A stretch of 25,018 nucleotides of DNA from a virus, in IMG/VR virus record IMGVR_UViG_3300021090_001085, positions 1 through 25,018 of that record; one strand, 5' to 3'. The notes beneath the pieces are model-generated. The model saw only the letters and a list, made by a program, of their open reading frames with translations, did no database searches and was not told the DNA's origin. A program made the position numbers and the translations under genes. Below are positions 2,861 through 22,928 of the stretch, piece after piece (position 1 is the stretch's first letter; the number at the start of each line of letters is the position of its first letter).

Positions 2861-3514
2861 ATGAGCGACTCATTGACCACTCTCATCGGCAAGGTACAAA
2901 ACATCCTAGGCGATGCAACAGGGACCTACTTCACCACCGCCATTGTGACAGCCGCCATAAGACAAGCATTGTCGGACTGGAACCTACGCGCGCCCAACTT
3001 CGCAGCCGTGACCATCGCAGCCGTAGCTAATCAATACGAATACGAGCTATCAGACGAGGACGCAAACGCAATCGAACTCCTCGACGTGCTGAAACAGGGA
3101 CCAAACAACAACGAGATCGACGTATCCCTCGACTATGACGCATACGTGGAGGATGAACGCGTGTTCTTCCGGCTCCGCCGTCCGCTTACCACAGCCGATA
3201 CGATCATTGTCAGGTACATCACCTATCACACGATCAATGGACTGGACAGCCAAACCGAGAGCACACTACCCACCTACTATGATCAAGCAATGGTAGACGG
3301 CGGAGCATTCTTCTCGATCATGATCCGAGCGACCAGCCGGATTGAAACAATCAATCTTTCACAGCAGCAATCCGACAATTACAGAGAAATTGCCGGAGCC
3401 TTCGCGCAAGCCTTTGCACTCAGACTTGCCGAAGCACAGAGAAAGAGACAAGCGCCGGTCTCAGAGCCCGACCCGCGCGCATGGAATGATGCTTATCACA
3501 ATTGGGGGCAATAA
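2861..3514 (+). CDS. Putative head-tail adaptor (neck) protein
   Basis: 217 residues; AAAGGAAAC precedes the ATG. An N-terminal helical region (TLIGKVQNILGDATGTYFTT then IVTAAIRQALSDWN) is followed by a beta-rich centre and a helical C-terminus (about residues 140-200). The opening pattern, a helix pair with a D/N-x-x-L-x-x-W motif about 30 residues in, resembles neck or adaptor proteins that cap the portal ring. It lies after the decoration genes and just before the tail or fibre candidate, with stop and start abutting (TAAATG), as expected for a connector. No specific family is confirmed. Confidence 0.6.
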   Translation: MSDSLTTLIGKVQNILGDATGTYFTTAIVTAAIRQALSDWNLRAPNFAAVTIAAVANQYEYELSDEDANAIELLDVLKQGPNNNEIDVSLDYDAYVEDERVFFRLRRPLTTADTIIVRYITYHTINGLDSQTESTLPTYYDQAMVDGGAFFSIMIRATSRIETINLSQQQSDNYREIAGAFAQAFALRLAEAQRKRQAPVSEPDPRAWNDAYHNWGQ

Positions 3515-5328: not shown

Positions 5329-5336
5329 TAAAACGA

Positions 5337-5370
5337 ATGCTCCCCTCTCTTCTCACGGAACGGGGAGCAT
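5337..5370 (+). terminator. Terminator-like hairpin after the structural operon
   Basis: ATGCTCCCC (5337-5345) pairs perfectly with GGGGAGCAT (5362-5370) across a 16-nt loop, starting 8 nt after the stop of the last structural gene. The following sequence is CCAAAAAGG rather than U-rich, so a Rho-independent function is uncertain. Confidence 0.5.
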
Positions 5371-5500
5371 CCAAAAAGGCGAAGACGGCGCGAACAATCT
5401 ACCAATCAAAGTCAAGTCAACTTCTGGTCGTCTCAGTGATTACGTTTCGATCATGCTCCCAGGTCAAGCCGCGGCGTCGATTAAGTATAACGATATATAG
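5342..5500 (+). pseudogene. Orphan open frame without a start codon
   Basis: The frame ending at TAG 5498-5500 reads in the codon style of the neighbouring phage genes (GSIQKGEDGANN, then LPIKVKSTSGRLSDYVSIML, ending AAASIKYNDI). No ATG, GTG or TTG opens it after the upstream stop. It overlaps the hairpin at 5337-5370. It may be the remnant of a small virion protein whose start was lost, or it may be expressed by frameshifting from an ATG at 5338. Alternatively it is chance. Confidence 0.3.
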
Positions 5501-5536
5501 ATGATTGTCAATATGAAGATGAGAGAATGAGGAGAT

Positions 5537-5803
5537 CGGCTCCGCTTTCCGTCTCTCAAAACAAGACCAACGCAAAGAAGACGCGCAAGCCGCCCTAATT
5601 GAAACAGATCAAATAATACGTTTTTACACCCGTATAACGATCATGAACACGAACAACAGCCGACCCATTCGAAGATGGACAAATAAACCATACATAGCGA
5701 ATCATCGCCCTAATGTAATCCCAAGACAGCTTCATGCGAGAGTTCTCCTTGCCGCGCATAATAACACAGGTTTAGAAAACGGCTCCGCTTTCCGTCTCTC
5801 AAA
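5537..5803 (+). repeat. 24-bp exact direct repeats flanking a minus-strand gene
   Basis: The same 24 bases, beginning CGGCTCCGCTTT and ending CGTCTCTCAAA, occur at 5537-5560 and 5780-5803, 243 bp apart. Between them lies one small gene on the opposite strand (5595-5735). The repeat starts with the same CGGCTCC as the dispersed hairpin family, and the right copy runs into a GAGTAC hairpin (5812-5827), so these may be degenerate members of that family. Confidence 0.75.
5595..5735 (-). CDS. Small minus-strand protein (46 aa)
   Basis: On the minus strand, ATG (5735-5733) is preceded by AAGGAGAACTCTCGC. This is the same GGAGAACYCTC leader used by many + strand accessory genes here, which is the main reason to believe it. 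It encodes 46 residues (MKLSWDYIRAMIRYVWFICP, then SSNGSAVVRVHDRYTG), probably a short amphipathic helix followed by a beta-hairpin. It is one of only two confident minus-strand genes and lies between 24-bp direct repeats, which suggests a separately acquired gene. No function recognised. Confidence 0.55.
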   Translation of the reverse strand: MKLSWDYIRAMIRYVWFICPSSNGSAVVRVHDRYTGVKTYYLICFN

Positions 5804-6410
5804 GCAGAGGGTTGGCGAGTACGCCAATGGTAGCGCAAGACGCCCCCCGCCCCTCCCAAACCCAACCCCACCCCCCACGTCTGCTACGTTCTCTCACTAT
5901 CGTTCGGCACTTCGCATCCAGCAAGGTGTGTCAAACATGGGATAGGGGCGGGGGGCTCCAGAAGCTTCCCCCTACGGGGTCGGCGCGGTTGCGCCTAAGC
6001 CTTGCGCTACCAAAAGCAGAGGGTTTGCTTCGCAAAGGCTCACGTAAAGCTCGCCAAATCTCAAAGAAGATCAAAAGTTCTTAGAGTAACGCCGGAGAAC
6101 ATCGGCTAAAAGTTTTTAGAAAGAACATAAGCATGGTTTGCCCCTTCTCTTGCGCTCTCATTGCGGATTACCGCAACGAGCCTCAGGCGCAAGTAGTCGG
6201 GGTGGGTGCGGGTGCATTGCACAATGGCGCATTTTTGCAAGCAATGCCCGCGGCGTCTCTGCGTGTGCTGTTCATAAAGCCATGGTGTTATTTGCACACG
6301 CAGAGCGGCGGGCAAGAGCTTGCTTGCAAAAACCAGCCGAAAGAGCATCGGCTTTGCTTATCCCATTGTGCAAAGGGGGCAATGTGCTGCGCATTTTTTA
6401 GCACCCTCGC
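5804..6410 (+). ncRNA. Candidate large structured RNA
   Basis: About 600 nt with no convincing gene but many long nested helices. Domain 1: TGGTAGCGCAAG (5828-5839) pairs with CTTGCGCTACCA (6001-6012). Inside it GCCCCCCGCCCC (5842-5853) pairs with GGGGCGGGGGGC (5945-5956). Local hairpins are CCCC/GGGG at 5969-5979, GGCGC-GGTT-GCGCC at 5982-5995 and TTTGC/GCAAA at 6024-6036. Domain 2 is four stacked helices: 6219-6227/6363-6371, 6232-6244/6320-6332 (13 bp, TTTTTGCAAGCAA arm), 6246-6251/6308-6313, and 6257-6268/6294-6305 (12 bp). All nest correctly. Size and phage context recall giant phage RNAs such as GOLLD or ROOL, but I cannot match a family. Strand is assumed from the neighbouring genes. 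Confidence 0.55.
5812..5827 (+). repeat. Palindromic repeat, copy D
   Basis: Stem TTGGC (5812-5816), loop GAGTAC (5817-5822), stem GCCAA (5823-5827). It is preceded by the CGGCTCC-headed 24-bp repeat and followed directly by the nested helices of the candidate RNA. The stem sequence differs from all other copies while base pairing is kept. Confidence 0.6.
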
Positions 6411-6458
6411 TCATCTAAGTGCTAGCGCACGGCAAATCTAAAGCAAAGGCAGCCTCAC

Positions 6459-6560
6459 ATGCAATTCTCCCGCTTCATTCTCTGGTGTCTCAAAATCACA
6501 ATCTCAGTTCTGGCTAGTGCAATCACCGGCCGTCATTCCTGCTGGTGTTCAAATGTCTAG
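6459..6560 (+). CDS. Possible 33-aa hydrophobic peptide
   Basis: ATG at 6459 follows GGCAGCCTCAC, a variant of the GGAGAACCCTCAC leader. The 33-residue product (MQFSRFILWCLKITISVLAS, then AITGRHSCWCSNV) has one hydrophobic segment and a Cys-rich end. It overlaps the next frame by a few bases. It could be a membrane peptide or a leader peptide for the gene after it. The call rests on the leader alone. Confidence 0.35.
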   Translation: MQFSRFILWCLKITISVLASAITGRHSCWCSNV

Positions 6561-9381: not shown

Positions 9382-9460
9382 TCGGGCTTCGCTTCAAGCG
9401 AGCACGTTTCCTTTTTGCTTTTGGGTTTTTTGTTTGTGTGTCGCAACGCGACGGGAGAAC

Positions 9461-9520
9461 GACTCCCACGGCGGCGGAGTACCGCCGCCTCCTGCTAACG
9501 GAAGGTTCCACCTCCCGACC
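9461..9520 (+). repeat. Palindromic repeat, copy E (intergenic)
   Basis: Stem GGCGGCG (9470-9476), loop GAGTAC, stem CGCCGCC (9483-9489), preceded by GACTCCCAC and followed by CTCCTGCTAACGG. Its first hairpin is identical to copy I at 22863-22882. It lies in the 295-nt non-coding stretch 9298-9592, which holds in order two terminators, a T-rich segment, this repeat and the promoter of the excisionase-like gene. Confidence 0.8.
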
Positions 9521-10091: not shown

Positions 10092-10336
10092 GGTAACAAT
10101 ATACTTGACACACAAAAGGATCAAAAATGGCTAGTTATAAAGTTGCACCATTGTTTAACCCTAACAAAGACCCTGAAACCTTCGATGATTACGAGGATGC
10201 GGAGATAAAAGCCATTGAAAACAGTATAGATGACGACGCTTGGGGCGTGTGGGACGAAGAAACAGACCACCTTGAAGCCATCGCTTACCAAAGCACCGCC
10301 TACTCTCAATGATTATGTGTCAAGTATATCAATGCC
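10092..10336 (+). mobile_element. Inverted-repeat gene cassette 1
   Basis: 21-bp terminal inverted repeats (10092-10112 and 10316-10336) start with GG, vary over the next few bases and share the invariant inner block ATATACTTGACACA. They are flanked by the direct repeat TAAGATTT (10084-10091 and 10337-10344; GCC before it matches too). One gene fills the inside. There is no transposase, so the element must be mobilised in trans. A GG start and 8-bp duplications occur in IS6- and ISL3-type elements, but the family is not established. It is inserted between attP and the last codons of the integrase. Confidence 0.85.
10127..10312 (+). CDS. Acidic cargo protein of cassette 1 (61 aa)
   Basis: ATG 14 nt after the left terminal repeat, with AAAGGA as ribosome site; the stop is 3 nt before the right repeat. 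61 residues, strongly acidic in the middle (DPETFDDYEDAEIKAIENSI, DDDAWGVWDEETDH). It is not related to the cargo of cassette 2. The -10-like TATACT in the left repeat may drive it. I recall similar acidic small proteins (F-N-P-x-K-D-P-E-T-F-D-D-Y-E) in Chloroflexota genomes, function unknown. Confidence 0.7.
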   Translation: MASYKVAPLFNPNKDPETFDDYEDAEIKAIENSIDDDAWGVWDEETDHLEAIAYQSTAYSQ

Positions 10337-11172
10337 TAAGATTTTACCAGTCTTGCGACCGGCAAATAGGGAGTGATTGCCGACGCATCCAAGCCTTGGG
10401 TATATCGCTCCACCATATCAATAGACGACCATCTACCCGCTTCCTGAACCACACGCGACGGAGCGCCAAAGACCGTCGCAAGTGTAGCAAACGAGCGCCG
10501 CAGATCATGGGGAGAGAGTTTTATCCCAATCCGCAAACCCCACCCCTTCACCATTCCCTGTAATCCCTCGCGCGTGAGAGCACGACCGCAGCGCTGATGA
10601 TTCATCGACACGAACAAAGCGCCGACTCCATCGGCAGGCTTGCGAAAGCCAAGCCAGCGATCAATATAGAGCGCCGTCTCGTGAGAGAATATCCCTATCC
10701 CCCACTGACCGCCCTTCACGATGACTTGCAAGGTCCGCTCATGCAGATCGACGTCAGCCAAAGCGAGTCGACAAAGCTCAGAACATCTAAGACCCGTATC
10801 CAGAGCCACAGCACAAATAGCCAAGTCACGCGCACCGGAAGGAAGGGACGTATCAAACGAGGCAAGCAATTCGAGAGCCTGCTCCTTTGTCAATACCCTT
10901 TGTTTCTTCGGCTTGATTATCTTCAGACGAGCCGAGAGAGCCGGATGATCATCCCCCCACTTCCAACGGATGTACTTCCGAATGGCAAAGAGAGCAAGCA
11001 GCCGCTGTGAATTCCCCCATTCAGGCCGATCAAGAAACCCAATCAAATCCACTGCCTGCCAGGAATTGACAGGCAGACCATACGCCAACCCAAAAACACG
11101 CAGGTATCTAGCCTTTGTGTTCTGTGCGTATGGATGAGACGCCAGGAAGCGCGTCACATCTTCCCTATTCAC
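10336..11172 (-). CDS. int: Tyrosine recombinase (phage integrase)
   Basis: 278 residues if started at the GTG at 11172, which has a near-perfect GGAGGT 5 nt upstream; the longer open frame to 11325 crosses palindromes and lacks a ribosome site. N-terminal SAM-like core-binding domain (about 1-75), catalytic domain (about 90-270). Catalytic residues: R129 (GLRCSEL), K153 (VIVKGG), H222 and R225 (SPHDLRRSF), W248 in the sixth position as in Cre, and nucleophile Y257 (MVERYTQG). It would recombine attP at the tRNA fragment (10038-10080) with a host tRNA gene. Cassette 1 is inserted right at its 3' end, and the stop codon sits at the cassette boundary. Confidence 0.93.
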   Translation of the reverse strand: MNREDVTRFLASHPYAQNTKARYLRVFGLAYGLPVNSWQAVDLIGFLDRPEWGNSQRLLALFAIRKYIRWKWGDDHPALSARLKIIKPKKQRVLTKEQALELLASFDTSLPSGARDLAICAVALDTGLRCSELCRLALADVDLHERTLQVIVKGGQWGIGIFSHETALYIDRWLGFRKPADGVGALFVSMNHQRCGRALTREGLQGMVKGWGLRIGIKLSPHDLRRSFATLATVFGAPSRVVQEAGRWSSIDMVERYTQGLDASAITPYLPVARLVKS

Positions 11173-11231
11173 GATGTACCTCCAATTGGTTTTATCAGGG
11201 TGAGCCCTATCCCCCGCCCTGTTGAAACAAC

Positions 11232-11251
11232 CCCGCGTTGGGACACGCGGG
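11232..11251 (-). promoter_or_regulatory. Hairpin upstream of the integrase
   Basis: CCCGCGT (11232-11238), loop TGGGAC, ACGCGGG (11245-11251), about 60 nt upstream of the integrase start. It could attenuate integrase transcription or serve as a protein-binding site. Confidence 0.45.
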
Positions 11252-11266
11252 AAGCCTGCCTGTGCG

Positions 11267-11284
11267 CCTGCCTGCGCAGGCAGG
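11267..11284. repeat. Perfect 18-bp palindrome CCTGCCTGCGCAGGCAGG
   Basis: Perfect dyad without spacer, embedded in a larger imperfect inverted repeat (GCCTGCCTGTGCG at 11254-11266 against the GCAGACAGGC region after it). It shares its arms with the hairpin at 148-166. It lies in the 226-nt gap between the divergent integrase and the gene at 11399, where regulators of both would bind. Confidence 0.65.
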
Positions 11285-11311
11285 GATACGCACGCAGACA
11301 GGCAATGAACT

Positions 11312-11364
11312 GTCACTGACAACACTCAGCGAACCCTCACGGAATGCAAAGCGCCGTCAGTGAC
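11312..11364. promoter_or_regulatory. Distant inverted repeat GTCACTGAC / GTCAGTGAC
   Basis: Exact 9-bp inverted arms at 11312-11320 and 11356-11364, 35 nt apart, in the intergenic region before the gene at 11399. They could be paired operator sites or a long-loop hairpin. Confidence 0.4.
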
Positions 11365-13455: not shown

Positions 13456-13735
13456 CAATATACTTGACACATAAGGAAGGTAGTAATGGATGATAACCGT
13501 CCGTTTCCAATCCAGCACGAATACAAGCGCAATAAGGCGGGAGAAATGGAGCGTCATGAGTCTTCTGAAATACCTTGGTGGCTGGCAGAGGTTGCCTATG
13601 AGTGGTACGCCAAACGATACGGAACCAAACAGAGCCTTGAACGACTGGCTGAACGTGGCGGTTTTGGCAGGAGCGAATTGATTATGCTGATTCGCAGAGA
13701 ACTCTAGGTTTTTGTGTGTCAAGTATATGATTACC
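13451..13735 (+). mobile_element. Inverted-repeat gene cassette 2
   Basis: 21-bp terminal inverted repeats at 13451-13471 and 13715-13735 (4 mismatches) have the same inner block ATATACTTGACACA as cassette 1. They are flanked by the 8-bp direct repeat GAAGATTT (13443-13450 and 13736-13743). Size 285 bp, one gene, no transposase. Target duplications in the two cassettes differ only in the first base (GAAGATTT, TAAGATTT), which implies a preferred target. Insertion truncated the ORF at 13414. Confidence 0.85.
13486..13707 (+). CDS. HTH-like cargo protein of cassette 2 (73 aa)
   Basis: TAAGGAAGG precedes the ATG, 14 nt after the left terminal repeat; the stop is 7 nt before the right repeat. 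The first 27 residues are polar. Then IPWWLAEVAYEWYAKRYG and QSLERLAERGGFGRSELIML form three helices resembling an HTH or small helical bundle. I recognise W-W-L-A-x-x-A-Y-x-x-Y and L-E-R-L-A-E-R-G-G-F-G-R as a motif found in many unrelated phage genomes with unknown function. The cassette therefore carries a widespread phage gene. Confidence 0.75.
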   Translation: MDDNRPFPIQHEYKRNKAGEMERHESSEIPWWLAEVAYEWYAKRYGTKQSLERLAERGGFGRSELIMLIRREL

Positions 13736-13761
13736 GAAGATTTTATTCACGGAGGCACATA

Positions 13762-14400
13762 ATGAGCATCAAGGCAATGTCACTCGTTTGGGAACTAAAA
13801 TGTCCGGCAGAATGGAATGGCTTACGCTTCACATCGAGCCATAAATTCGTGCTACTTGCCTACGCGGACCACGCCGACCATGAAGGCAAAAGCATCTATC
13901 CGGCAATCATCACCATACGCAATAAAACCGGATACTCCACAGAAAGACAAATACAACGAATCACACACCAACTCGAACAAATGGGAATGCTTCTTCCAGA
14001 CGGAGCCGGACCCAAAGGCACACATAGATGGATGCTACCCTTTGATGTGGGGGGTGTAAAGATTACACCCCCGCAATTATTACAGGGTGACATTGGAGAC
14101 CAATCATTGGGTGACATTCCATTGGGTGACATTCCTTCGGGTGTAAAAATTACACCCGAATTAAAGGAACCAGAACAAGAGGTATATATATCTATTCTGG
14201 AAAAGAATTTTCAATTTCACGATTTTTGGAAAAAACTGAAATGGGAAATCCGAAATGCCAGCTTCCAGATCGACGGCAAAACTATGATCATCACAGGGCT
14301 TGGTACGCGCGCAGAAGTGTTACAAGCACGCTATATCAACTATATCAAGCGCGCCCTTGTCATCAGCCAAGACCTCGAATCAATCATCTTTCAGGAGTAA
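13762..14400 (+). CDS. HTH replication initiator, lambda-O-like
   Basis: Start set at 13762 with GGAGG 7 nt upstream; the frame is open back to 13714 inside the cassette. 212 residues. N-terminal winged HTH (about 25-92; FVLLAYADHADHEGKSIYPA, then TIRNKTGYSTERQIQRITHQ and LEQMGMLLPDG) of the type found in phage replisome organisers (HTH_36). The middle (98-135) is low-complexity, encoding LGDIPLGDIP repeats, and its DNA carries iteron-like repeats. The C-terminal domain (about 145-212) probably binds helicase or host replication factors. It very likely initiates replication at the repeats inside its own gene, as lambda O does. Confidence 0.75.
   Translation: MSIKAMSLVWELKCPAEWNGLRFTSSHKFVLLAYADHADHEGKSIYPAIITIRNKTGYSTERQIQRITHQLEQMGMLLPDGAGPKGTHRWMLPFDVGGVKITPPQLLQGDIGDQSLGDIPLGDIPSGVKITPELKEPEQEVYISILEKNFQFHDFWKKLKWEIRNASFQIDGKTMIITGLGTRAEVLQARYINYIKRALVISQDLESIIFQE
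14050..14160 (+). other. Putative replication origin inside the initiator gene
   Basis: Two near-perfect palindromes with shared core GGGTGTAA-N3-TTACACCC (14050-14072 with 10-bp arms; 14136-14160 with 11-bp arms) enclose three direct repeats GGGTGACATT (14085-14094, 14109-14118, 14124-14133; the last two are 15 bp apart). An AT-rich run follows at about 14160-14225. Origin iterons inside an initiator gene are typical of lambdoid phages. Confidence 0.65.
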
Positions 14401-14404
14401 AGCC

Positions 14405-14845
14405 ATGAGTAAGATCGAATTCACTCACAAATGGTTTTGGAAATCCAGACTTCCAGAACGAAAAGGGCAGAAGTGCAGAGTATTGGCACACGGCAAAATG
14501 AATTCAATCCTTGTTGAATTTGCAGACGGCTATAAGGTCATTACCTCGCGCTATGCAGTCCGACTCATCACAACCCTGCTAATTGTGCTCCTAATGACAG
14601 GTTGCATTTCAACGGTTATCAAAACAAATCCGACTCCTACGGCTCCGCCGCCGCCGAGTACGGCGGCTCTTATAACGGGAAGCCAGCCTCCCGGACCCAC
14701 AGGGAGCAAGACCGAGATCGAGAGCGGAGCCGTCTTCACCATCCCCGAATGGTGGATGCTAGGCACACCAGGACCCGCCAAGCACATCCAGAAGGGGAGG
14801 AGTAATTATTACAATCCCCAAAGCGGAGCGGAGCGGGACCAATGA
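14405..14845 (+). CDS. Composite lipoprotein with repeat-derived linker (146 aa)
   Basis: Residues 1-53 (EFTHKWFWKSRLPERKGQKC, ILVEFADGYKVITSRYAVR) match a free-standing small phage protein type I recall (RKGQxCRVLxxGxxNSxLVEF). Directly after comes a lipoprotein signal: LITTLLIVLLMTGC, lipobox LMTGC. Then hairpin repeat copy F is translated as PTAPPPPSTAALITGSQPPG, and a C-terminal domain follows (VFTIPEWWMLGTPGPA). The order suggests fusion of a small cytoplasmic domain to a lipoprotein, lengthened by the repeat. An internal signal this far from the N-terminus is unusual, so the lipoprotein may have its own start nearby (for example GTG or ATG around 14586-14595). Confidence 0.55.
   Translation: MSKIEFTHKWFWKSRLPERKGQKCRVLAHGKMNSILVEFADGYKVITSRYAVRLITTLLIVLLMTGCISTVIKTNPTPTAPPPPSTAALITGSQPPGPTGSKTEIESGAVFTIPEWWMLGTPGPAKHIQKGRSNYYNPQSGAERDQ
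14638..14700 (+). repeat. Palindromic repeat, copy F (inside a gene)
   Basis: Stem GCCGCC (14650-14655), loop GAGTAC (14656-14661), stem GGCGGC (14662-14667). The second hairpin is CGGGA (14676-14680) with TCCCG (14689-14693), a compensated change from CGGGG/CCCCG. The frame used here is shifted relative to the other in-gene copies. Confidence 0.8.
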
Positions 14846-17946: not shown

Positions 17947-18294
17947 ATGAACGGCAAAGGAAACAGCATCGCCGACAAGATCGACAACCTCCTAAAAGAG
18001 GACGTCACTTTTTCCACACGCTCAGGCGTGAGATTTCTCACTGAAGTTATCCGCGACGCATTTGAATTCATCGAGCAGGAAAAGACACGCAACGCAAGCG
18101 CCGACCTGAAGCAGAGCAGCATCGAGATCCGACTCGGAAATGTGGAGAACGGTCTCAATGAATTTCTCAAACTACGCAAGGCAGAGCAGGAGAAGAACGA
18201 AACCGAAAGAACAAAATGGAGGTGGGCAATCATCACGCCCACAATAGGACTTATATTCGCGGAGCTAGCCAGATGGTTTCTATCAAAGCCGTGA
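17947..18294 (+). CDS. Coiled-coil protein with C-terminal membrane anchor (115 aa)
   Basis: ATG 17947 (a GTG at 17941 is possible). Helical, charged body with heptads (IEIRLGNVENGLNEFLKLRK), then WRWAIITPTIGLIFAELARW as a single C-terminal transmembrane helix. The shape (cytoplasmic coiled coil plus one anchor) fits an i-spanin or other membrane-tethered factor turned the other way, but it could be unrelated to lysis. It overlaps the next start by 22 nt. Confidence 0.6.
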   Translation: MNGKGNSIADKIDNLLKEDVTFSTRSGVRFLTEVIRDAFEFIEQEKTRNASADLKQSSIEIRLGNVENGLNEFLKLRKAEQEKNETERTKWRWAIITPTIGLIFAELARWFLSKP

Positions 18295-18695
18295 GAAAGA
18301 CAAAGGCAAAGACCAAGAGCCGCAAACAGGGAGGCCAGCCAGGCAATAAGAATGCCATGCGCCATGGATTTTACGCGAAGAGATTCACAGCCGAAGAACA
18401 GACCAGACTCGACAGCCAAGACTCAACCGACGTACAAGCCGAGATAGCACTTATCAGAGTGTGCATGGACCGACTGACAAATGAACTCAACTTCAAGATC
18501 GTAACCACCGTAGACATGCAAGGCAACATCACCAGGGACGACCATTATCTTAAACAACTCAACACACTAGGACTGATGACACAATCCCTGTCCACCCTCA
18601 CACGCACTCATTATCTGATCAAAGGCAAAGGCGGAGATGTGGCCGACGCAATTATGACCGCGCTCGAAGAACTCAGATTGGAGATGGGAATATGA
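18273..18695 (+). CDS. Candidate small terminase subunit (140 aa)
   Basis: GGAG upstream of ATG 18273. The basic start (KTKAKTKSRKQ) followed by GGQPGNKNAMRHGFYAKRF is a recurrent opening of phage proteins annotated as small terminase or terminase-associated. The rest is helical (VQAEIALIRVCMDRLTNELN, LKQLNTLGLMTQSLSTLTRT). Lying 0.8 kb before terL in the same operon, it probably recognises packaging DNA. CGATCG palindromes in the gene at 18808 could be its site. The specific family is not proven. Confidence 0.6.
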   Translation: MVSIKAVRKTKAKTKSRKQGGQPGNKNAMRHGFYAKRFTAEEQTRLDSQDSTDVQAEIALIRVCMDRLTNELNFKIVTTVDMQGNITRDDHYLKQLNTLGLMTQSLSTLTRTHYLIKGKGGDVADAIMTALEELRLEMGI

Positions 18696-19083: not shown

Positions 19084-19091
19084 TGCGACGG

Positions 19092-19155
19092 GAGGTCGGC
19101 TCCGCCGACCGGCGAGTACGCCGGTCTCTTACTAACGGGAGCCAGCCCCCGAACC
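19092..19155 (+). repeat. Palindromic repeat, copy H
   Basis: Stem GACCGGC (19107-19113), loop GAGTAC, stem GCCGGTC (19120-19126), second hairpin CGGG/CCCG (19136-19151). It sits in the 137-nt gap 19084-19220. A 34-codon ORF (19068-19172, MDAELMRREVGS) reads straight through it in the same frame as copies A, B and I (E/D-x-G-S); that ORF may be only a by-product of the repeat. Confidence 0.85.
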
Positions 19156-19220
19156 CCAGGGAGCGCAGCTAATAGTCGTTTGTGATAATAACATTTGTCG
19201 AAAGCATGAAGGAAGAACAC

Positions 19221-19517
19221 ATGACAGAGCAGACCACATTTGAAAGCTATTGCATCATAGAGCTATTCGGACACCAAAGAATCGCAGGCAAGGTCACTGA
19301 ACAAGTTATAGCCGGACAAGGATTTATACGCGTCGATGTGCCAGCTACCAAGAGACAGCCAGCATTTACAAGAATGTTTGGAAGCGGAGCGATTTACAGC
19401 ATCACACCGGTCGAGAAGGAAATTGCAGAGCGAGCCGCAGAAGCAATCTACGTCGAGCCAGTAACCATCTACATCGCGCCGACACACCAACTAGAGGAAC
19501 ACGAAGAAGAATTCTAA
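19221..19517 (+). CDS. Widespread phage/mobile-element protein of unknown role (98 aa)
   Basis: Start set at 19221 after GGAAGAACAC; the upstream ATG (19182) lacks a site. F-E-S-Y-C-I-I-E-L-F-G-H-Q-R-I-A-G-K-V-T-E-Q, then GFIRVDVPA and PAFTRMFGSGAIYSITPV form a pattern I recognise from many phage and mobile-element genomes (x-E-L-F-G-H-x-x-I-A-G-x-V-x-E-Q; F-T-R-x-x-G-x-G-A-I-Y), always as a hypothetical protein. Probably an all-beta fold. Overlaps terL by TAATG. Confidence 0.75.
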   Translation: MTEQTTFESYCIIELFGHQRIAGKVTEQVIAGQGFIRVDVPATKRQPAFTRMFGSGAIYSITPVEKEIAERAAEAIYVEPVTIYIAPTHQLEEHEEEF

Positions 19518-21004
19518 TGTCCACCCTCGTTCAGACCATCAAGAACATTTCCAAGACCTTCGACCGTTTCACAAGCAGAAGCGGAGCCATACAAATGCGC
19601 CCGTACCAACTGGAACCAGCCGAAGCAATTATCAATTCCATCATCACCAAGCAGGGTCTTACCTTCGTGATCATCATCAGCCGCCAGGCAGGCAAGGACG
19701 AGCTCCTTGCAAACCTGATTGCTTATCTCATGTACTTATTCGGACATCGGGAATGCGGGATAGTCGTTGCAAATCCCACCTACAAGCCGCAGACGCTCAA
19801 TTTTCTCATGCGTTTGGAGAACAGACTCAAAGCCAACCTATTGACCAAATCATTCTGGAAGAAGCGCGCCGACTACATGCGCATGATCGGAAGCGCCGTC
19901 ACATCCCTTCTATCAGGCGACAAGGATGCAAACGTCGTGGGAGCCACAGCCAGCCTATTACTTGTGATCAACGAAGCCCAGGACATCACGCCCGCCAAGT
20001 ATGACAAGGATTTTGCGCCAATGGTCGCATCGACGAACGCCACCCGAATAATCGTAGGCACACAATGGACCAGCAACACACTCCTAGCCAGGGAAGAGGA
20101 CGCAGCCAGGGAAGCCGAGAAAGCCGATGGTATCCGGCGAGTGTTCGTCTACACAGCCGAAGATGTGAGAAAAGTAAATCCACCTTACGGGCAATTCGTG
20201 GACTCGGAACTCAAAAAGCTAGGGAGAGAGCATCCCCTAGTCAAGACACAATACTTTTGCGAGCGCATCGACGCACAAACGGGAATGTTCAACGCCCGCA
20301 GGCTTGCACTGATGCAGGGAGACCAGCAGCCGCAGGACCAGCCAATACCAGGACACGCCTACGCCTTTCTGATAGACGTAGCCGGACAAGACGAAGGGAT
20401 TTTAGAGCTCGAAGGAATGCGAAACCCAGGCAGGGACAAGACCACACTCGACATTATAGACATCGACCTGTCACAGCTTGACCTGCTGCAAGCGCCCATC
20501 TACCGAGCCGTCAAGCGGCTCGAATGGCAGGGAGATAACCACGTCGATATTTTCGGCGCGCTGTGTGCCATGGCCAGCCAATGGCATCCCCTTTACATCA
20601 TCGAGGATGCAACCGGAGCCGGTGAAGGACTCTGGGGAATGTTATTCCGCAAATTCGGGGAACGCGTAATCGGATTCAAGTACACCGCGCAGAGCAAATC
20701 CGAATTAGGCTATGGATACATAGCCATTATCGAAAGCGGGAGATTCAGGGACTGCGTGCAGGACGAGAACAGCCGAGAGCAATACGCCAATTGCCGAAGC
20801 GAAATTCTGATAGGACCATCCAAAACCATGCGTTGGGGCGTGCCGGATGGAACACGCAATCAAACCGGCTTGCTTATCCATGACGACATCATCACGACCG
20901 ACGCACTCACAGCACAACTTGATTTGCTCGAATGGTATGTGCAAGCCGAGACCACAATTATCGAACAAGCCGACCCATTGGAGGAGATGAACCGTGCCTA
21001 CTAA
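19517..21004 (+). CDS. terL: Large terminase subunit (DNA-packaging ATPase/nuclease)
   Basis: 495 residues, usual size. It pumps DNA into the prohead through the portal and cuts it. ATPase: Walker A variant SRQAGKDE (55-62), Walker B LLLVINEAQDI (147-157; the usual Asp is Asn, E153 kept), coupling motif RIIVGTQW (177-184). Nuclease: D287 (AFLIDVAG) and D364 (YIIEDATGAG) as metal-binding candidates. Start overlaps the upstream stop (TAATG). The end overlaps the portal start by 11 nt. Walker A ending GKD instead of GKT/S also occurs in divergent TerL groups. Confidence 0.9.
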   Translation: MSTLVQTIKNISKTFDRFTSRSGAIQMRPYQLEPAEAIINSIITKQGLTFVIIISRQAGKDELLANLIAYLMYLFGHRECGIVVANPTYKPQTLNFLMRLENRLKANLLTKSFWKKRADYMRMIGSAVTSLLSGDKDANVVGATASLLLVINEAQDITPAKYDKDFAPMVASTNATRIIVGTQWTSNTLLAREEDAAREAEKADGIRRVFVYTAEDVRKVNPPYGQFVDSELKKLGREHPLVKTQYFCERIDAQTGMFNARRLALMQGDQQPQDQPIPGHAYAFLIDVAGQDEGILELEGMRNPGRDKTTLDIIDIDLSQLDLLQAPIYRAVKRLEWQGDNHVDIFGALCAMASQWHPLYIIEDATGAGEGLWGMLFRKFGERVIGFKYTAQSKSELGYGYIAIIESGRFRDCVQDENSREQYANCRSEILIGPSKTMRWGVPDGTRNQTGLLIHDDIITTDALTAQLDLLEWYVQAETTIIEQADPLEEMNRAY

Positions 21005-22343
21005 AAAGCAGTTGGAAAACCAGATCGTAATGTTGAATGATGCTTTAGAAGCCTCACTCAGTCTCTCGCCGGAGAGGGATAACAACTTCTTCACAGGCGG
21101 AATAAGCGGACTCTACGGAGATCAACGCAGCGCATGGGACCGCAAACGCATCTTTGCCGAGAGCCTCAGAGCATGGAGAGTCAATCCGATAGCGCGCCGC
21201 ATAGTCAGACTGATGACTTCATTCGTGGTAGGCAAAGGTCTCGCGATCAAGAGCGACGACCCAGACATACAAGCCTTCCTCACCCAATGGTGGAATCATC
21301 CCCTCAACAAGTTCAATCGCAATGTCAAACGCTGGAAGGACGAGGACACGCGCACAGGCAATCTATTCTTTTTATTCAATGTCTCGGCGAACGGAATGAG
21401 CATCGTCAGAGCCGTACCCGCCGAGAAGATCGAGGAGATCGAGACCACAGAAAACGACATAGAACAGGAAGTCTGCTATCACAAAGACGCCAGCGAAAAA
21501 GAGAAATGGGAATGCTACAACGACGAAATGGAACAGCAATCTTTTATGATGCACTTCGCAAGCAATCAACCCGTGGGCAGTCCATGGGGAGAAGCCGACC
21601 TATCGCCCCTTCTGGTATGGATAGGTCGCTTCAGTTCGTGGCTCGAAGATCGAGTCAGACTCAACAAATTCCGAACCGTGTTTATGTATGTGATCCGCGG
21701 CTCATACACCAGCGAAGCCGAGCGCAGCACACGCGAGAAGGTCATCAACGCCAACCCACCGAAATCCGGCAGCGTGCTCGTGCTCAATTCCAACAACGGC
21801 GAAGCATGGGGCATCCTGTCAGGACAGCTGGACGCATTCGACGCCTCGAACGATGGAATGGCAATCAAGAAGATGATCATGAATGGCGCAGGTCAGCCAA
21901 TGCATTGGCACGCCGAGGGTGAAAGCTCGATTTCAACAACGGCCGAAGCCGCAGGCACGCCGACATTCCGCACACTCGAAGAAACGCAAAACGATTTCTT
22001 CGAAATGCTCATCGAAATGGCAAAGGTCGCAGTCAAAGTCAAAGGCTTGCAACTCACAGAAGGCAAGACAATTTGGGTCGAAGGACCGGACATCACAGAG
22101 CGGGATAATGCAACCCTCGCGCTTGCGCTCGGTCGAGCCTATCCCAATCTAGCGGACTTGTACGATAGAGACGGCATCGACAGCAAAGAGTTTATGCGGC
22201 TCATCTACAAGATGTTCGCCGAAGTGTGGAGCGGCAAAGAGCCGAAGATCAAACAGAAACCGTTGACCAAGCCAGCCGCAGACGCACCGGCCACCAGCCC
22301 TGACAACGTAACAGAGCCGACCGACCCGAAGGAGCCGACATAA
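20994..22343 (+). CDS. Portal protein
   Basis: 449 residues from GTG 20994 with GGAGGAG 6 nt upstream, inside the end of terL. Typical portal signs: RVNPIARRIVRLMTSFVVGK (about 61-80), QAFLTQWWNHPLNKF (about 91-106), a long helical stem, and a Pro/Thr-rich disordered C-terminus (PAADAPATSPDNVTEPTDPK). It would form the dodecameric ring at the capsid vertex, docking TerL and the adaptor. Order terL, portal, small genes, protease-capsid is standard for tailed phages. Confidence 0.85.
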   Translation: MPTKKQLENQIVMLNDALEASLSLSPERDNNFFTGGISGLYGDQRSAWDRKRIFAESLRAWRVNPIARRIVRLMTSFVVGKGLAIKSDDPDIQAFLTQWWNHPLNKFNRNVKRWKDEDTRTGNLFFLFNVSANGMSIVRAVPAEKIEEIETTENDIEQEVCYHKDASEKEKWECYNDEMEQQSFMMHFASNQPVGSPWGEADLSPLLVWIGRFSSWLEDRVRLNKFRTVFMYVIRGSYTSEAERSTREKVINANPPKSGSVLVLNSNNGEAWGILSGQLDAFDASNDGMAIKKMIMNGAGQPMHWHAEGESSISTTAEAAGTPTFRTLEETQNDFFEMLIEMAKVAVKVKGLQLTEGKTIWVEGPDITERDNATLALALGRAYPNLADLYDRDGIDSKEFMRLIYKMFAEVWSGKEPKIKQKPLTKPAADAPATSPDNVTEPTDPKEPT

Positions 22344-22632: not shown

Positions 22633-22928
22633 CAATGCTCAAATGGGCAAACCAATCGCAGAACCCCTGCCCCTCCTGTATCGCGCTGGACGGACAGGTC
22701 CACAGTGAAGAGACGTGGCGAGAATTCGGCATCGAGCCGAAGCATGAAAGGCTTTACTGCAAAGATCATTGCACATGCACATTCATCGAGACCGACGAAG
22801 ACGAAAGCGGAGATTTATCGACCGTTCCTCTACGACAAGCCAGCGAGGAGGTCGGCTCCCACGGCGGCGGAGTACCGCCGCCTGCTGATAATCGGGGTAA
22901 CGCCCCCGAACGACTATTAGGAGAAACC
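22629..22928 (+). CDS. Minor-head-protein C-terminal-like domain, reading through into the capsid gene
   Basis: ATGA overlap with the upstream gene. MTMLKWANQSQNPCPSCIAL, then DGQVHSEETWREFGIEPKH and LYCKDHCTCTF have the Cys-pair and A-L-D-G pattern found at the C-terminus of SPP1 gp7 / Mu F-type minor head proteins, here without the large N-terminal part. There is no stop codon. The frame continues through repeat copy I (EEVGSHGGGVPPPADN) and then in frame into the protease-capsid gene. Either ribosomes make a fusion, or the repeat removed the original stop and the capsid is made only from its own start at 22929. Confidence 0.55.
22850..22910 (+). repeat. Palindromic repeat, copy I
   Basis: Stem GGCGGCG (22863-22869), loop GAGTAC (22870-22875), stem CGCCGCC (22876-22882). 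Second hairpin CGGGG (22893-22897), loop TAACGC, CCCCG (22904-22908). It ends 18 nt before the capsid ATG, next to its ribosome site (AGGAGA). Confidence 0.85.

Follow-up and report, generated by a model that had tools for sequence, protein, structure and literature searches.

The structured region at positions 5804-6410 of a 25,018-base phage sequence (the window, which is an entire IMG/VR record) is best read as a composite of two adjoining elements: a phage RNA that would be read from the minus strand (domain 1) and a palindrome that would most probably serve as a bidirectional terminator or insulator (domain 2). We give this reading, which was reached by sequence comparison, a probability of about 0.55. 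The initial annotation had described a real structure but had joined two elements as one. Its two domains of nested long helices are found as exact inverted repeats at the places it gave, with lengths that differ by 1-2 bp, and when the 617 nt from 5804 to 6420 were folded the region was far more stable than its shuffles on both strands (20 shuffles per strand; plus strand, -262 kcal/mol against -217 +/- 4, z -11.5; minus strand, -277 against -219 kcal/mol, z -8.6). Its view that no convincing gene is present was borne out as well, as L040 lacks counterparts of the small open reading frames between 5329 and 6516, and a gene with a homolog does not begin until about 6517-6553.

That one ornate RNA of about 600 nt spans both domains, whether GOLLD/ROOL-like or of a new giant class, would agree with how very stably the region folds as a whole, with its phage setting and with its freedom from genes, yet we consider this very improbable. 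The region is not GOLLD, ROOL, OLE or HEARO, because the Rfam run on it gave no match either at the gathering threshold or at E<=10; Rfam at the gathering threshold on ten related loci returned nothing for either domain, and no match was obtained when the region or domain 1 was compared by BLAST with annotated phages and plasmids. Nor is it a single RNA, because relatives separate the domains by genes and promoters or by orientation: in L040 a copG-like gene and its promoter stand between them, in L060 they lie about 1 kb apart with a copG-like gene, another gene and a promoter-terminator unit intervening, and in L059 their relative orientation differs. Furthermore, domain 1 prefers the minus strand, whereas domain 2 has no consistent strand preference. 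The alternative suggestion of a new class is thus retained for domain 1 (about 180 nt, on the opposite strand) and dropped for the whole region.

The phage carries the integrase, terminase, portal, adaptor and initiator genes listed in Table 1. About 30 related contigs were gathered by portal, terminase and adaptor searches, and a tail-protein search retrieved no relatives. Because relatives of the terminase sit in MAGs of Anaerolineales and other Chloroflexi, the host probably belongs to a Chloroflexi/Anaerolineales-type group. A homolog of the first early gene is present in L040 and homologs of the second in L045 and L029; the absence of a match to the early protein in 396 genomes shows little, because that set held no positive control. 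Elsewhere in the window two adjacent similar genes of unassigned family (184-690 and 698-1210; 168 and 170 aa) appear to be a tandem duplication, and intergenic repeats of about 45-77 bp are dispersed over five sites (19085-19161, 2781-2844, 22847-22890, 9426-9502 and 14632-14705) and are shared with several relatives.

Table 1. Positions of the features discussed (window positions unless a relative is named).
Feature	Position	Strand	Basis or remark
Domain 1, candidate structured RNA, ~180 nt	5826..6014	-	homology, covariance-model matches, G-U bias
P1, closing helix	arms 5828-5839/6001-6012	-	exact 12-bp inverted repeat
P4, long C-rich/G-rich helix	5842..5956, arms 5842-5854/5944-5956	-	13-bp inverted repeat; conserved internal loop
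GGGGTTGGGTTTGGGAGGGG	5850..5869	-	invariant in 5/5 copies; helix arm and canonical G-quadruplex string
P3, side hairpin	5968..5979	-	folds and alignment
Domain 1 homolog	L040:3732-3918	-	
Domain 1 homolog	L028:15063-15262	-	
Domain 1 homolog	L059:10979-11172	+	
Domain 1 homolog	L060:12928-13112	+	
GTTYTTAGA, two copies, possible operator repeats	6077..6121	+	to the left of the palindrome; L040 has three copies and L045 two
Domain 2, long imperfect palindrome	6200..6410	.	arms 6217-6227/6363-6373 (11 bp), 6232-6244/6320-6332 (13 bp), 6257-6268/6294-6305 (12 bp); 6-bp side hairpin 6335-6353
First two early genes, 89 aa and 114 aa	6517..7170	+	3' of the domain 2 palindrome
SU10-type adaptor	2861-3514		weak match, slightly below the Pfam cut-off
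Integrase	10336-11325	-	
Lambda O-like initiator gene	13714-14400		
Iterons GGGTGTAAAGATTACACCC	14052-14157		two palindromic copies 87 nt apart, within the O-like gene
Small terminase	18216-18695		weak match
Large terminase	19517-21004		
Portal	20994-22343		weak match

Domain 1 and its homologs

Domain 1 is a candidate for a new family of structured phage RNAs with at least five members and no counterpart in Rfam. Against L040, the closest relative holding the region, it is 93% identical over window positions 5832-6008 with unalignable flanks, which is above the 78% identity of the adaptor gene in the same pair; the copy in L028 is 72% identical in the core. A covariance model built from these three copies matches two more distant phages, L060 (E=7.5e-18) and L059 (E=4.9e-11). 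A pattern of 21 bases taken from the 3' arm of domain 1 had been used to recruit both, so that their match is partly non-independent, and its independent part comprises the C-rich 5' arm, the CCCCTATCCCA...ACACAC segment and the outer helix. There is one copy per phage. In L029 and L023/L045 the G-rich end alone is kept, and these partial ends adjoin an HNH gene and a gene that by eye resembles a Dam-type methyltransferase. No copy of domain 1 turned up in 396 Anaerolineae genomes, and in 400 Chloroflexota genomes none was found save for one weak match, neither set containing a positive control. From the BLAST and model searches of Chloroflexota genomes, a 29-nt BLAST match and a weak 77-nt match were not counted as members, nor was a hairpin of 61 nt that follows the late operon in the L034 provirus (E about 0.01), and L052 proved to be a chance pattern match inside a gene.

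In every copy the fold is better on the minus strand, where G-U pairs are about fourfold commoner (35/319) than on the opposite strand (9/284), an excess which fits an RNA copied from that strand rather than a palindrome in DNA. In the outer helix P1 and the side helix P3 the letters vary while pairing is kept: P1 reads GCGCAAG/CTTGCGC in the window, GCCACAG/CTGTGGC in L028 and GCGCAGG/CCTGCGC in L059, and P3 reads CCCC/GGGG in the window, CGGCG/CGCCG in L040 and GGCCAT/ATGGCC in L028. It should be noted that the outer and P3 helices of L028 align out of register, so that their co-change rests on single folds. Paired changes of the kind that the initial annotation proposed to test for are seen within domain 1, where five pairs have changed on both sides among three sequences and three among five sequences (aligned core); the sequences are few. 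In the five sequences 96% of cells are paired, against 43-61% when slid, and for the 23 inner and outer pairs counted in P4 the figure is 97%. Since 17 of the 23 are invariant in all five copies, and since most pairs are invariant and the sequences few (n=5), the evidence for pairing is good and not final. None of the reading frames stays open through all five copies. An intrinsic terminator was rejected as an explanation of domain 1, the minus strand after P1 having no T run in the window, L028 or L060.

In L040 and L028 domain 1 lies directly or nearly 3' of, and co-directional with, a small gene that from the appearance of its sequence we take to be RHH/CopG-like. In L060 it lies farther 3' of such a gene, whose protein had no match in Pfam or PHROGs, after another gene and a promoter-terminator unit, and in L059 an RHH-like gene and domain 1 diverge. 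Because it is 3' of and co-directional with the RHH/CopG-like gene in three relatives, the RNA is probably contained in, or processed from, a repressor-side transcript, which would run antisense to the late genes. The copG-like gene has been lost from the window, where domain 1 also shows no clear promoter. If transcribed, the rigid multi-helix fold would be the active part, its invariant internal loop and G-tract arm binding a protein or switching to a G-quadruplex. A bolder reading, possible but doubtful, is that domain 1 represents a new class of RNA in phages with Chloroflexi-type hosts, made from the repressor-side strand, whose invariant GGGGUUGGGUUUGGGAGGGG arm would alternate between long helix and G-quadruplex and so control phage or host.

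Several other features of the locus were recorded. Immediately upstream of domain 1 in L060 (12525-12882) a promoter (TTGACT-17-TATTAT) is followed by about 300 nt free of genes and a GC-rich hairpin, possibly another non-coding RNA. In the window a candidate small RNA (5335-5511, minus strand) lies between a near-consensus promoter (TTGACA-16-TATACT, 11/12 consensus) and a terminator hairpin after the late operon; this arrangement recurs in L016, L040, L029 and L045, the last two being 89% identical over 143 nt. The direct repeat CGGCTCCGCTTTCCGTCTCTCAAA occurs at 5537-5573 and 5780-5816, and once in L049 (5263-5288) after a tail gene. The locus is also a hotspot for minus-strand cargo genes (L028:13298-15656, L029:18679-19343 and L045:10840-11930), among them an HNH_3 endonuclease and a D12-class methyltransferase, with a repeated boundary motif in L028; for an integron attC reading of this cargo array, no integron-like protein was found among the proteins scanned.

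The domain 2 palindrome and its counterparts

With GC content corrected for, no part of the 25 kb is more structured than domain 2 (4.3 sd over 300 nt and 4.2 sd over 200 nt), and counterparts lie just 5' of the early operon in six relatives (L029, L031, L045, L040, L060 and L059). The hairpin is long in L029 (z -7.5), L031 (z -7.3), L059 (z -8.3) and L060 and smaller in L045 and L040, and it is the strongest structure of the locus in the window, L029, L031, L059 and L060. The hairpin sequences are largely different, yet short motifs are common to them, AAAAAATGCG in four and CCAAAAGTAC in three; in a shuffle control a 10-mer common to three appeared in 0/200 shuffles. Paired A/T tracts are present in five of the seven hairpins, with opposite polarity in the window and none in L060, and several hairpins have a terminator-like shape on both strands. 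The copG-side promoters point away from domain 2 which, judged by promoter position, lies outside both the copG-side and the early transcripts.

From its shape and position, domain 2 would be a DNA-encoded palindrome between repressor-side and early promoters, and most likely a bidirectional intrinsic terminator or insulator whose stop in both directions would separate transcription of the early operon from that of the late, cargo and repressor genes. Against a terminator count the missing A/T tract in L060 and the fact that terminators are unusual between divergent promoters.

Alternative readings of the two domains

Domain 1 might instead be a small mobile or cassette-like DNA element in the minus-strand cargo hotspot, its fold a by-product of palindromic ends, and we hold this to be a possible but doubtful reading. 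The borders of the domain are sharp at the outer inverted repeat, it is more conserved than nearby genes, partial ends lie by HNH and Dam-like genes in L029 and L023, and the boundary motif GCCACAGGCCGCCC is repeated in L028; the single copy per phage and the failure to find it in 396 Anaerolineae genomes speak against this reading, and a DNA element would need neither the G-U strand bias nor hairpins that vary and stay paired. For domain 2 two alternatives are each unlikely. A functional RNA hairpin, such as a decoy double-stranded RNA, expressed from a promoter of its own would suit the pairing that is kept among phages though sequence and length vary, but the position of domain 2 outside the neighbouring transcripts argues otherwise, as does its low G-U content without a consistent strand bias. 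The other, a replication origin or another DNA-level cruciform site, draws on the long palindrome between divergent promoters with short repeats alongside it; this is made less likely by the O-like initiator gene having palindromic iterons of its own, whose 87-nt spacing is kept in L016 while the letters have changed. Iterons inside an O-like initiator gene are the lambda-type origin arrangement, and the pair at 14052-14157 is the probable replication origin of this phage. A protelomerase site was also considered for the palindrome, and no telomere-resolvase protein was found among the proteins scanned. The preferred reading, a minus-strand RNA beside a bidirectional terminator or insulator, illustrates how two unrelated adjoining structures can mimic one giant RNA if a single genome is read.

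Comparison with known systems

Structured phage RNAs are poorly catalogued beyond model hosts, and Chloroflexota phages have been little studied; domain 1 yields a covariance model, five candidate members, and a strand and position that are defined in relatives of Chloroflexota proviruses. ROOL RNAs contain multiple pseudoknots and assemble into a homo-octameric nanocage. GOLLD is often longer than 800 nt, and both GOLLD and ROOL often lie near tRNA islands (PMC12286853). Domain 1 shares with these two a phage or prophage setting, a non-coding character and an elaborate predicted structure, and differs in its length of about 180 nt, in the lack of any tRNA found in the window and in matching neither Rfam model, nor any of the 4227 Rfam families against which it was compared. 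It would also resemble phage small RNAs and structured 3' untranslated elements in being a short structured RNA of a repressor-side transcript, and is unlike them in its invariant C-rich/G-rich helix with a G-quadruplex string. The comparison of domain 2 with a lambda-type origin in an O-like gene, invited by its palindrome and repeats, fails in that the iterons of this phage are in the initiator gene and not in domain 2. With bidirectional intrinsic terminators domain 2 would have in common a place between transcription units and, in the five of seven hairpins with paired tracts, an A-tract/stem/T-tract arrangement that may be readable on both strands, and it departs from them in that its stem is set within an imperfect palindrome of 100-300 nt and its flanking promoters are divergent, not convergent.
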